From Apricaphanius iberus (Eukaryota; Chordata; Actinopteri; Cyprinodontiformes; Aphaniidae): DNA of 64,000 nt. Location of the stretch: NCBI GenBank assembly GCA_028564705.1, contig JAPXFQ010001150.1:186001-250000 (forward strand), read 5' to 3'. The stretch's first letter is position 1. Each line of letters opens with the position of its first letter. The translations under genes and the position numbers were made by a program. Positions 18,701 to 54,840 of the stretch are shown piece after piece. The notes under the pieces were generated by a model, which was not told where the DNA came from, did no database searches, and was given only the letters and a program-made list of their open reading frames with translations.

Positions 18701-20130
18701 TAATAATCAGTTAAAAGCTTGGTTAAAAAGGTGAGTATAGATCCTGCTCTTAAAAACATGAACGTTCTCTGCGGCCCTGAGGTCCTCTGGCAATCTGTTT
18801 CCAGAGGTTAGGGCCTTAATAATTAAAAGACGCCTCACCATGAATTCGTGTCCTGACTTTGGGGATGATAAAGAGACAGCTGCCAGAGGAGTGCATGATG
18901 GTTCATATGATAAAAGCATTTCTGAAAGATAAGAAGGCCCAAGACCATTAAAACACTTAAAAACCATTAAAAGAACTTTAAAATCGATCCTAAAACATAC
19001 GGGGAACCAATGCAGTGATTTTAAGACCGGTGTAATGCCCTCCCGCCTCCTGGTCTTCATCAGGACACGAGCTGCTGAATTCTGTAAAACCTGTAAACTT
19101 GAGGTAGTGTTTATGGGAAGACCAGAAAGCAGAGCGTTACAGTAATCAAGTCTACTGGTGATAAAAGCATGCAGTATTGGCCCGAGAGATAATGGGGCGG
19201 ACTGTTGCGATGTTCTTTAGATGAAAAAAAACTATTTTTGTAATGTTTTTAATGTGAGGATAAGAGTCAGCTTAAAGTCAAAAATCCCATCTAGGTTTTT
19301 CACTTGTAACAATGGATTAAAAGACAGTGATTGTAGTTTTGGTAAAAATGTCTTTGTCTGAGGCTCAGGACCGATAACTAAAACTTCAGTTTTGTCCTGG
19401 TTGAGCTGTAGAAAGTTTCCTGTCATGCAGGATTCAATGTCTAAAATGCAGTTAAAAAGTGCATCCATTGGCCATGTGTAGTCAGGAGACATGGAGATGT
19501 ATACAACTGTGTATCATCAGTGTAAATGTAAAAGTTAACTCCATGTCTTCTGATGACACTGCCAAGAGGGAGCATATACAGGTTAAAAAGCACTGGGCCT
19601 AAAACTGAACCCCGGGGCACACCACATGTGATCTTGCGGACCTTACAGGAACAGGTATCTAAACTTACCATAAAAGTCCTGTCTTTGAGATATCATGTGA
19701 ACCACTTATGAACAGCACCAGAGAGGCCGATCTGTTTTAAATGGGTTAAAAGAATAGTGTGGTCTGCTGTATCAAAGGCAGAGCTTAGATCCAGTAGAAC
19801 CAACACTGTCACTTTATTAGCATCGTAGTTTAATCTATAATCGTTTAAAATATTTAAAAGAGCCGTCTGAGTGCTGTGGTTCATCCTAAAACCAGACTGA
19901 AATTTCTCTAGGACAGTATGAGTGTTAATAAAATAATTAAGTTGAATTAAAACAAGTTTTTCTAAAACTTTGCTTAAAAATGGTAAGTCAGATACCGGTC
20001 AGTAGTTGTTTAAATCATTACAATCGAAATTGCTTTTCTTCAGCAGGGGCCTCACTACTGCGCATTTAAAGGCGGCAAGAAAAAACCCCATCCGAGGAGA
20101 GCAATTCATTAAGGTTAAAATCTCCTCTCT
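18700..20130 (-). pseudogene. L2-like LINE, reverse transcriptase and C-terminal region, broken
   Basis: Minus-strand segments in several frames follow the order of an L2-clade reverse transcriptase. At 19884-19693 is 'VLVLLDLSSAFDTADH' (first catalytic Asp); at 19671-19441 come 'GVPRGSVLGPVLFNLYM' and 'YTDDTQLY' (the Y-x-D-D active site). At 19492-19232 is 'QLNQDKTEVLVIGPE' and at 19060-18707 'LKSLHWFPVCFRIDFK' with the end 'VFKSRIYTHLFNQAF'. Frame changes separate these blocks, so it is not functional. The product would copy element RNA into DNA at nicked chromosomal sites. A SINE at 20131-20390 separates it from the upstream endonuclease part. Confidence 0.8.
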
Positions 20131-20390
20131 GGGGGTGATTGTGGCTCAGTGGTAGAGTAGTTGGCTTGCAATCGGAGGGTCGTAGGTTCAATTCCAGCTT
20201 CCTCCTCCACATGTCGATGTGCCCCTGGGCAAGGCACTTAACCCCCAAATTCTACATTGTCCTACCAAGCCATGGTGGGTGTTGGTGTATGAATGCGAGT
20301 GTGAATGGGTGAATGTGGCCTCAATGTAAAGCGCTTTGAGTGGTCAGTAAGACTAGAAAAGGAGTATATCAATTCAGCCCATACCATCTC
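20131..20390 (+). repeat. tRNA-headed SINE, copy A, inside the L2-like LINE
   Basis: The head has an A-box-like 'tggctcagtgg' (20152-20162) and a B-box-like 'ggttcaattcc' (about 20187-20197), the two internal promoter elements of RNA polymerase III. The body runs through 'gcccctgggcaaggcactta' to a tail 'aaagcgctttgagtggtcag' and 'gagtatatcaattcagccc'. A closely similar copy is at 48395-48639. It interrupts the minus-strand LINE, so it inserted later. Confidence 0.75.
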
Positions 20391-48394: not shown

Positions 48395-48639
48395 GGGCGA
48401 CTGTGGCTCAGTGGTAGAGTAGAGTTGACTTGCAATCGTTCGATTCCAGCTTCCTCCAGTCACATGTCAATGTGCCCCTGGGCAAGGCACTTAACCCCAA
48501 AAAACATTGTCCTACCGAGCCATGTTGGGTGTCGGTGTATGAATGTGATTGTGAATGGGTGAATTTGGCTTCAATGTAAAGCACTTTGAGTGGTCAGTAT
48601 GACTAGAAAAGCGCTATATAAGTTCAGTCCATTTACCGC
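48395..48639 (+). repeat. tRNA-headed SINE, copy B, inside the LINE
   Basis: A-box-like 'tggctcagtgg' near 48405 and B-box-like 'gttcgattcc' near 48440 head a body with 'gcccctgggcaaggcactta' and a tail 'gcgctatataagttcagtcc'. It interrupts the LINE between 'gctgccagaggagcac' and 'cgatggttcatatgg', which are joined in the 18880-18915 copy apart from small differences. Confidence 0.75.
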
Positions 48640-48713
48640 GATGGTTCATATGGTGTGACATTAGAAAGGTTCAATCCTCTTACTCAGCTCTTAGACCGTT
48701 GTTCTTATTCTAA

Positions 48714-48911
48714 GGTACAAACAAGAACAAAACCAGTTGCCCCATCACCAAGGACAACAGGCGTCACTGCCAGGCATGCCGCCTCAAACGCTGTGTGGAC
48801 ATTGGCATGATGAAGGAGTTCATTGTGACCGACGAGGAAGTGCAGCGAAAGAAGGACCTGATTCAATCTTATTATCTGGTGTTACACAGCTCCTGTGAAT
48901 GTCTTTCTTAG
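48714..48911 (+). pseudogene. vdr: Captured vitamin D receptor DNA-binding-domain fragment
   Basis: A frame open from 48714 to a TAG at 48909 reads, from 48744, '[17 protein letters not shown]', then 'VDIGMMKEF' and '[15 protein letters not shown]'. These 41 codons (48744-48866) match the second zinc finger, the following helix and the T-box/hinge start of the vitamin D receptor; 'GMMKEF' and 'TDEEVQRK' are specific to that receptor among the NR1I group. In the intact receptor this region contacts DNA and RXR in the nucleus. Here three of the four finger cysteines are present (48738-48740, 48768-48770 and 48777-48779), and the first is replaced by Asn (AAC at 48720-48722). There is no first finger, start codon or ligand-binding domain. 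After 'LIQ' the similarity stops. No disabling mutation lies in the 41 codons. Confidence 0.85.
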
Positions 48912-49101
48912 CATTATACTAAGTGTCCCTTATTGTTATCTATCTCCTGATTGTTTAATGCTGACTACAGCAGTGAAGTGAAACATCCACATCCTGTGTT
49001 TACCTATTCCATGTAGTTCTGTGATTGGTCTTGTTGTTATCCTATCATAACTGTATGATGTAATGATCGGACAGAAGCTGATTCTTAGGGTGTGGCTAAC
49101 G

Positions 49102-49109
49102 GTATATAA
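49102..49109 (+). promoter_or_regulatory. TATA-box-like element of the LTR-like insertion
   Basis: The bases 'gtatataa' stand 128 bp before the right end of the insertion, in the position expected for an LTR promoter. Use is not shown. Confidence 0.4.
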
Positions 49110-50424
49110 ACTCATACATCTGTCTGAAGCTTGGGGGTTCTCACTAGGAGACCCTCCCGTGCATGTACGAATATGACTGACACTTTTGTTTTATTCTCTC
49201 ATCCAAGGCTTCTCAGACACCCAGATTTCCATGACATATGGTAAAAGCATTTCTGAAAGATAAGGCCCAAGACCGTTAAGACACTTAAAAACCATTAAAA
49301 GAACTTTAAAATCGATCCTAAAACATACGGGGAGCCAATACAATGATTTTAAGACTGATGTAAACTGCTCCCACCTCCTGGTCTTCATCAGGACACGTGC
49401 TGCTGAATTTTGTAAAACCTGTAAAGTTGAGGTACTCTTTTTGGGAGGACCAGAAAGCAGGGCCTTACAATAATCTACTGGTAATAGCATGCACAAGCGT
49501 CTCCGTATTGGCCCAAGAGAGAATGGAGCGGACTCTGGCGATGTTCTTTAGGTGATAAAAACCTATTTTAGTGATTTTTAATGTGGGCCATAAAATTCAG
49601 CTCAGAGTCTAAAATCACACCCAGGTTTTTCACTTGTAAAGATGGATTAAAAGACAGTAATTGTAGTTTTGCTAAAAGTTTATCTCTCTGAGCCTCAGGA
49701 CCGATAATTAAAACCTCAGTTTGGTCCTGGTTGAGCTGAATAAAGTTTTTTGCCATCCAGGATTTGATGTCTAAAATGCAGTTAAAAAGTGCATCCATTG
49801 GCCGTGTGTCATCAGGAGACATGGAGATGTACAACAGCATAACTGTGAAAGTTAACTCCGTGTCTTCTGATAGCACTGCCAAGAGGGAGCATGCAGAGGT
49901 TAAAAAGTACTGGACGTAAAACTGAACCCTGGGGCACACCAAATGCGATCTTATGGACCTTAGAAGAACAGGTATCTAAATGTACCATAAAAGTCCTGTC
50001 TGTGAGGTAGGATGTGAACCATTTGTGAACAGCACCAGAGAGGCCGATCTGTTTTAAACGGGTTAAAAGAAAAGTGTGGTCTACTGTATCAAAGGCAGCG
50101 CTTAGATCCAGCAGAACCAACACTGTCCCCTTTTTAGCATAGTTTAATCTAAAATCATTTAAAATCATTAACAGAGCCGTCTCGGTGCTGTGGTTCATCC
50201 TAAAATAAGATTGAAATTTCTCTAGGATGTTATGAGCATTAATAAAATCATTAAGTTGAACAAAAACAAGTTTTTCTAAAACTTTGCTTAAAAATGGTAA
50301 ATTAGATACCGGTCATTGTTTAAATTATTCAAACTATTCAAATCTAAATTGCTCTTCCTCAGCAGGGGCCTCACTACCGCTTTAAAGGCGGCAAGAAAAA
50401 ACCCCATCTGAATGGAGCAATTCA

Positions 50425-54599: not shown

Positions 54600-54840
54600 G
54601 AAAATACCATATGCACAAGGAGACCTAGTATCTAACTGTGGGTCCACAGGATGAGTAGTTGTCTTCCACTCAGAAAAGTGTGGGTTCAAATCCACCTGCC
54701 TCCCGTTATTATTTGACAACGTGCTCCTGGTTGTGGAAGTTTTCCCTTGACTTGAGAAGTGGTGTATAAAATATGGATCTAAAGTACAGCACTTTGAGTG
54801 GTTGGTATGACTGGAAAAGTGCTACATAAATCAAATTAAT
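54600..54840 (+). repeat. tRNA-headed SINE, diverged copy C
   Basis: A B-box-like 'gggttcaaatcc' lies at 54681-54692, and the tail 'gcactttgagtggttggtat' with 'ctggaaaagtgctacataaa' is that of the copies at 20131 and 48395. The A-box is poorly preserved. Confidence 0.55.

Follow-up and report, generated by a model that had tools for sequence, protein, structure and literature searches.

The window analysed here is a 64,000-nucleotide stretch of the Apricaphanius iberus assembly (C676:186001-250000), and the genome searched with parts of it comprises 1.195 Gb. At positions 48654-49236, the window contains a 583-bp insert that begins with TGTGACA and ends with CCATGACA, that is, with the TG...CA termini of a long terminal repeat (LTR), and that has TATGG on both sides. 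Inside this insert lies a short piece of vitamin D receptor (vdr) coding sequence. The features of the locus, in window positions, are these:

48649..48653, no strand: left copy of the target-site duplication TATGG, from the flank sequence and an empty-site relative near 18900
48654..49236, plus strand: solo LTR with TG...CA ends, of a multicopy family, from its ends, the ends of its relatives, and the duplication
48654..48664, plus strand: shortened 5' end, from alignments of family copies
48714..48911, plus strand: open frame of 65 codons plus stop (codons 48714-48908), running from LTR through the vdr piece and back into LTR
48723..48739, plus strand: left junction, where AAGAAC of the LTR is followed by about 5 extra nt and CCAGTTG
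48734..48819, plus strand: piece of vdr exon A (second zinc finger), 85/86 identical to C147:1045035-1045120 (query 35-120, 99%)
48819..48820, plus strand: exon-exon junction, where the host gene has a 1589-bp GT...AG intron
48820..48865, plus strand: piece of vdr exon B (start of the hinge), 44/46 identical to C147:1046710-1046755 (query 121-166, 96%)
49103..49109, plus strand: TATA box TATATAA, from the sequence; TATATAA is also present in 32 of 39 other copies
49162..49163, plus strand: point of a 14-nt deletion that removes the AATAAA typical of most copies, from alignments
49237..49241, no strand: right copy of the target-site duplication TATGG, from the flank sequence

The flanks of the insert belong to a repeat with a relative elsewhere in the window, aligned at 18904-19683 (83.7%) and 18799-18891 (87.1%). 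The relative near 18900 lacks the insert; flanks and relative agree through the insertion site except for a single base, the last of the duplication. The original prediction had called this empty-site match exact; the site is indeed empty and the flanks do match, but one base differs. Another repeat, of roughly 240-250 bp, occurs at 48395-48632 and 20133-20382 (83.4% identical), with a short match also at 54770-54829. Its copy at 48395-48632 stops about 20 bases before the LTR, and both it and the LTR break up one and the same older repeat, a nested arrangement of insertions.

A genome search with the insert returned 1222 first-look candidates. Scoring covered 40 of them, namely the window copy and the 39 best-matching others; counts for the LTR family are therefore lower bounds. 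Over most of query positions 212-583 the 39 other copies are 84-90% identical, and 37 of them match query 1-78 as well, some in part only. Both LTR ends were found in 28 of the 39, and TG...CA-type ends occur in the relatives too. After a simple motif test had set aside 8 of the 28 two-ended copies for shared internal-type flanks, the flanking 5-mers matched at 4 or 5 of 5 bases in 14 of the 20 copies kept, as against 5 of 380 mismatched pairings. Downstream flanks resembling GTTTT..GGCGTCAC, similar to a primer-binding site, are common to five of the 39 (L031, L032, L042, L044, L052), and polypurine-like upstream flanks resembling CCCAAAGCGGTGGAA are common to six (L026, L027, L028, L041, L045, L053). 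A full copy of the family without the insert is 524 bp long (L005). The sequence at 48654-49236 is a solo LTR of a multicopy family. In frames beside LTR places on six contigs, domains were detected in 1 of 7 and then in 6 of 10 (10 analysed of 30 listed); these domains (endonuclease, RVT_1, and aspartyl protease) each lie on the strand opposite to the adjoining LTR, and so are not evidently genes of this family.

Several details set the window copy apart. In most other copies, about 23 bp more precede TGGGACATTAG, where the window copy has TGTGACATTAG; the shortening may have arisen by a deletion that joined the similar 7-mers TGTGACA and TGGGACA. Near the 3' end, AATAAA is present in 33 of the 39 other copies and missing from this one. 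The position of the TATA box at 49103 gives the orientation of the LTR and places the vdr piece in U3.

The vdr sequence occupies 132 nt at 48734-48865 and has the same sense as the LTR. When 48700-48900 served as the query, all of the 13 candidates were scored, and vdr sequence was found only in the window and at one further locus, on contig C147. There, exon A ends AAGGAGT, a 1589-bp intron runs from gtaagt to ctttgcag, and exon B begins TCATTCTG; the LTR reads without a gap, AAGGAGTTCATTGTG. The two exon pieces, of 86 and 46 nt, are thus joined exactly at the splice junction, and together they are 129/132 identical to the host sequence, with two of the three differences altering the residue. 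E-values against the 1.195-Gb genome of 8.4e-35 for one exon piece and 5.5e-12 for the other exclude a chance match. Host exon A scores as zf-C4 and the product of host exon B can be aligned to VDR chains as far as the beginning of the ligand domain, which identifies the C147 locus as a vdr gene. Because the intron is absent and the exons are joined precisely at their splice sites, the piece derives from spliced mRNA of this gene.

The same evidence bears on a duplication of the vdr locus at the DNA level, by segmental duplication or gene conversion into the LTR. Such an event would account for the high identity and for nothing further, and the missing 1589-bp intron and the exact joining of the exons refute it, leaving it a negligible probability. 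Nor is the insert part of the vdr locus itself, given the missing intron and the location of vdr on a different contig. In these respects the original prediction, of an LTR insertion with genuine vdr coding sequence inside, is borne out by the TG...CA ends, the TATGG duplication, the zf-C4 match, and the exon matches on C147.

Two vdr paralogues are expected in fish. A second vdr-like exon is present at C1070:458239-458322 (L065), and its 28 residues are 93% identical to the piece. As a donor, this gene was rejected, with 66/83 nt identical compared with 85/86 for exon A on C147; the comparison with the host vdr genes that had been proposed at the outset thus singles out the C147 exons, at 129/132. 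Of exon A, the piece lacks about the first 45 nt; of exon B, it takes in the first 46 nt. With a partial exon at either end, it is not a full retrocopy. Moreover, neither poly(A) nor a target-site duplication of its own was seen at its borders, and we rejected a LINE-type retrocopy of vdr on both grounds.

At the left junction, LTR and vdr share the overlap CA[A/G]TTG (CCAATTG in the LTR, GGCAGTTG in vdr), and about 5 extra nt stand just upstream; at the right junction the overlap is 1-2 nt. The junction signatures of the window copy are LTR-CCAGTTGCCCC on the left and GATTCA-ATCTT on the right. In the alignment, most copies read AAGAACCAATTGTATG...GACAAATCTTGTTATTATC where the window copy reads AAGAACAAAACCAGTTGCCCC...GATTCAATCTTATTATC. 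Between the junctions, native U3 sequence has been lost, about 28 nt when judged by eye and about 40 nt if measured as the gap that separates the BLAST pieces. This replacement also speaks to the concern that a cDNA fragment was misjoined into the contig during library preparation or assembly. That only a single such copy was found, in assembly sequence, would be in keeping with an artefact. Against it stand the 3/132 mismatches between scrap and host gene, two of them residue-changing, the replacement of native sequence, and the position of the scrap within a contig of 580 kb, between two LTR halves whose duplications match. We regard an artefact as quite improbable.

The original prediction went further and held that the element had spread the receptor fragment through the genome. 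The many copies of the LTR family (40 scored from 1222 first-look candidates) would be in keeping with a vdr-bearing subfamily. None of the 39 other scored copies carries the piece, however; alignments show native U3 wherever the region is present, and one copy (L057) starts only downstream of it. At eight places outside the 39, only 31-33 bp of LTR sequence beside the piece matched, with no vdr. With all 13 candidates of the 48700-48900 search scored, vdr was confined to the window and the host gene, and a protein search (68 candidates, all scored, with 8 matches) found no other place that joins both exons. The proposed genome search with 48654-49236 accordingly recovered copies with the same type of ends and with 5-bp flank matches, while the receptor fragment was seen in 0 of 39. 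What we found is a single vdr-bearing copy, not a receptor fragment that has spread, and a dispersed vdr-bearing subfamily in this assembly is very improbable.

Two other copies were considered in this connection. The window copy has a 7-bp deletion near 48886, after GGTGTTACA, in common with a copy on C1738 (L012, match 1440581-1440612), which is among the eight places outside the 39 and was examined over its full length. Despite this deletion, the C1738 copy has native U3 and no vdr, and we rejected it as a sister copy; the common deletion is perhaps the result of recurrent slippage between ACA repeats. Another copy (L056, C754:70929-71818) is enlarged in the same part of U3 by about 384 nt of unrelated sequence, flanked by a short duplication, CTTGACTTATGACAT. 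A tRNA gene was looked for in this extra stretch and none was found. The stretch presumably represents a common fish repeat, and with its short flanking duplication it was rejected as a second U3 capture.

As the explanation for the scrap, we favor, with moderate confidence, template switching, in which reverse transcriptase moved onto vdr mRNA and then returned to element RNA, followed by integration and collapse to a solo LTR. Under this proposal, vdr mRNA would have been present in the particle where element RNA was being reverse-transcribed. As the minus strand was extended through U3, the enzyme would have left element RNA at CAAATCTT and entered vdr mRNA at GATTCA; after 132 nt, with the exon junction included, it would have gone back to element RNA at CA[A/G]TTG, so that about 28-40 nt of native U3 were passed over. 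Both LTRs of the new provirus would then have received the scrap when U3 was copied, integration would have created the TATGG duplication, and LTR-LTR recombination would have left the solo LTR. Several observations support template switching: the exons are joined exactly at GT/AG splice sites with the intron absent; scrap and LTR have the same sense, a requirement for a switch from one RNA to another; native U3 is replaced, with a short overlap on the left and 1-2 nt on the right; the divergence of the scrap resembles the private divergence of the LTR; and three private indels are what jumpy cDNA might show. Capture by template switching at microsimilarities also has published precedent in LTR elements (PMC5408686). 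On the other side, the searched assembly yielded neither a second LTR nor a sister insertion bearing the scrap, and the order of events proposed here, capture before integration, is a putative one.

Some of these traits do not discriminate between mechanisms. The replaced segment, the short overlap, and the extra nucleotides would equally fit an RNA-derived repair patch, and to that extent they count against template switching as the preferred account. In a patch, a break in the U3 of a resident solo LTR would have lost about 28-40 bp, and spliced vdr cDNA would have been end-joined into the gap. Class 2 templated sequence insertions have templates that include multi-exon spliced cDNAs and lack duplications and poly(A) (PMC5110952). 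As described there, they show microdeletion, microhomology, and non-templated nucleotides, and experimental cases measure 73-414 bp, with a median of 191 (PMC5110952). The scrap has the corresponding traits: poly(A) and a duplication of its own are absent, a little native sequence is deleted, and about 5 nt have been added on the left. A patch would have required a chance hit inside the LTR, and the divergence of the scrap is not below the private divergence of the LTR, although neither point is strong. A repair patch accounts for the locus almost as well and is the main rival, though we hold it less probable than template switching.

The divergence estimates behind this argument are as follows. 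Scrap and donor differ at 3/132 sites (2.3%, 95% interval 0.5-6.5). Private divergence of the LTR, counted where at least 80% of relatives agree and using 34 of the 39 relatives (five incomplete or enlarged copies were dropped), amounts to 11/426 columns (2.6%), or to 7/422 (1.7%) once four columns beside the junction or the 5' deletion are dropped by hand. With only three substitutions in the scrap, the rates do not differ (Fisher p 1.0 for 11/426 and 0.71 for 7/422), and the capture is thus not visibly younger than the LTR copy. The rates fit, without proving, a capture at about the time when this copy was made. Private indels of at least 3 nt number three in the window copy and average 0.77 in the 39 others, only one of which has as many, a count that is biased because the comparison set is the best-matching 39 and that comes from an alignment which misplaced the 5' part of the window copy (a 65-column gap compared with about 23 nt in the other alignment).

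The coding potential of the piece appears slight. Within the 48714-48908 frame, residues 8-50 correspond to positions 50-92 of 1kb2_A, a chain of the VDR DNA-binding domain (E 1.2e-21), and the frame matches Pfam zf-C4 (E 4.7e-9). The two C4 zinc fingers with all ligands that a functional VDR DNA-binding domain possesses are not both there: finger 1 is absent, and finger 2 keeps three of four zinc ligands, the first being missing. Judged by spacing, human C66 is the counterpart of the first cysteine in the piece, which leaves C60 missing (zinc-ligand residue numbers from PMC4923942). No in-frame ATG stands ahead of the vdr part in this frame, and because the piece lies upstream of the TATA box, a transcript begun at this LTR would exclude it. 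Taken together, the missing ligand, the lack of a preceding in-frame ATG, and the position relative to the TATA box make a receptor-like product from the LTR unlikely, and the dominant-negative or chimeric-protein effects that had been suggested are not favored. The intact frame lends no support to selection, as 88% of random sets of three substitutions leave the 41 codons open. Judged from its sequence, the solo LTR with its vdr scrap is most likely an inert fossil at present.

Even so, the locus offers a clean record of host mRNA rewritten into the germ line inside an LTR, in which the donor, the splice junction, the replaced segment, and both junctions can be identified. Capture in U3 would put host coding sequence in the promoter region of an element, and replication would copy it to both LTRs. 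By extension, pieces of U3 might in general be replaceable by packaged host mRNA through a double switch and be multiplied in both LTRs, in which case the window copy would be the sole member seen in this assembly of a vdr-marked lineage whose other copies would be carried by relatives or by other individuals; we put this forward as an unlikely, speculative extension. A single inert-looking copy does not demonstrate that a nuclear-receptor fragment has spread or acts on its host.

The capture of host mRNA by LTR elements is already known, and it is the location inside U3 that is unusual. Among the literature matches listed, a set whose scope leaves the main LTR-retroposition paper outside, there is no report of a host mRNA piece in the U3 of an LTR or of vdr in an LTR. 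The maize element Bs1 holds its gene fragments internally, a difference from the present case. It resembles the window copy in that cellular gene fragments are contained in an LTR element (PMC5408686), and metazoan cases of host-mRNA capture by LTR elements have been described as well (PMC5408686; PMC8277862). In LTR-mediated retroposition (Tan et al., 2016, as cited in PMC5408686 and PMC8277862), an mRNA joins element cDNA and comes to be flanked by LTRs; spliced host mRNA and LTR-element sequence are likewise joined in the window copy, apparently at short similarities, whereas the captured sequence here lies inside U3 and is only 132 nt long. Class 2 insertions resemble it in being short pieces of spliced RNA that lack poly(A) and their own duplication and that have a small deletion and a short overlap at the junctions; they are described at seemingly random breaks (PMC5110952), while the acceptor here is an LTR. 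Finally, crocodilian endogenous retroviruses, which captured KIT-ligand and nectin3 host mRNA, are likewise vertebrate LTR elements containing host mRNA (PMC4299795); theirs forms long internal open frames under purifying selection, in contrast to the short and probably non-functional scrap within one solo LTR in A. iberus.
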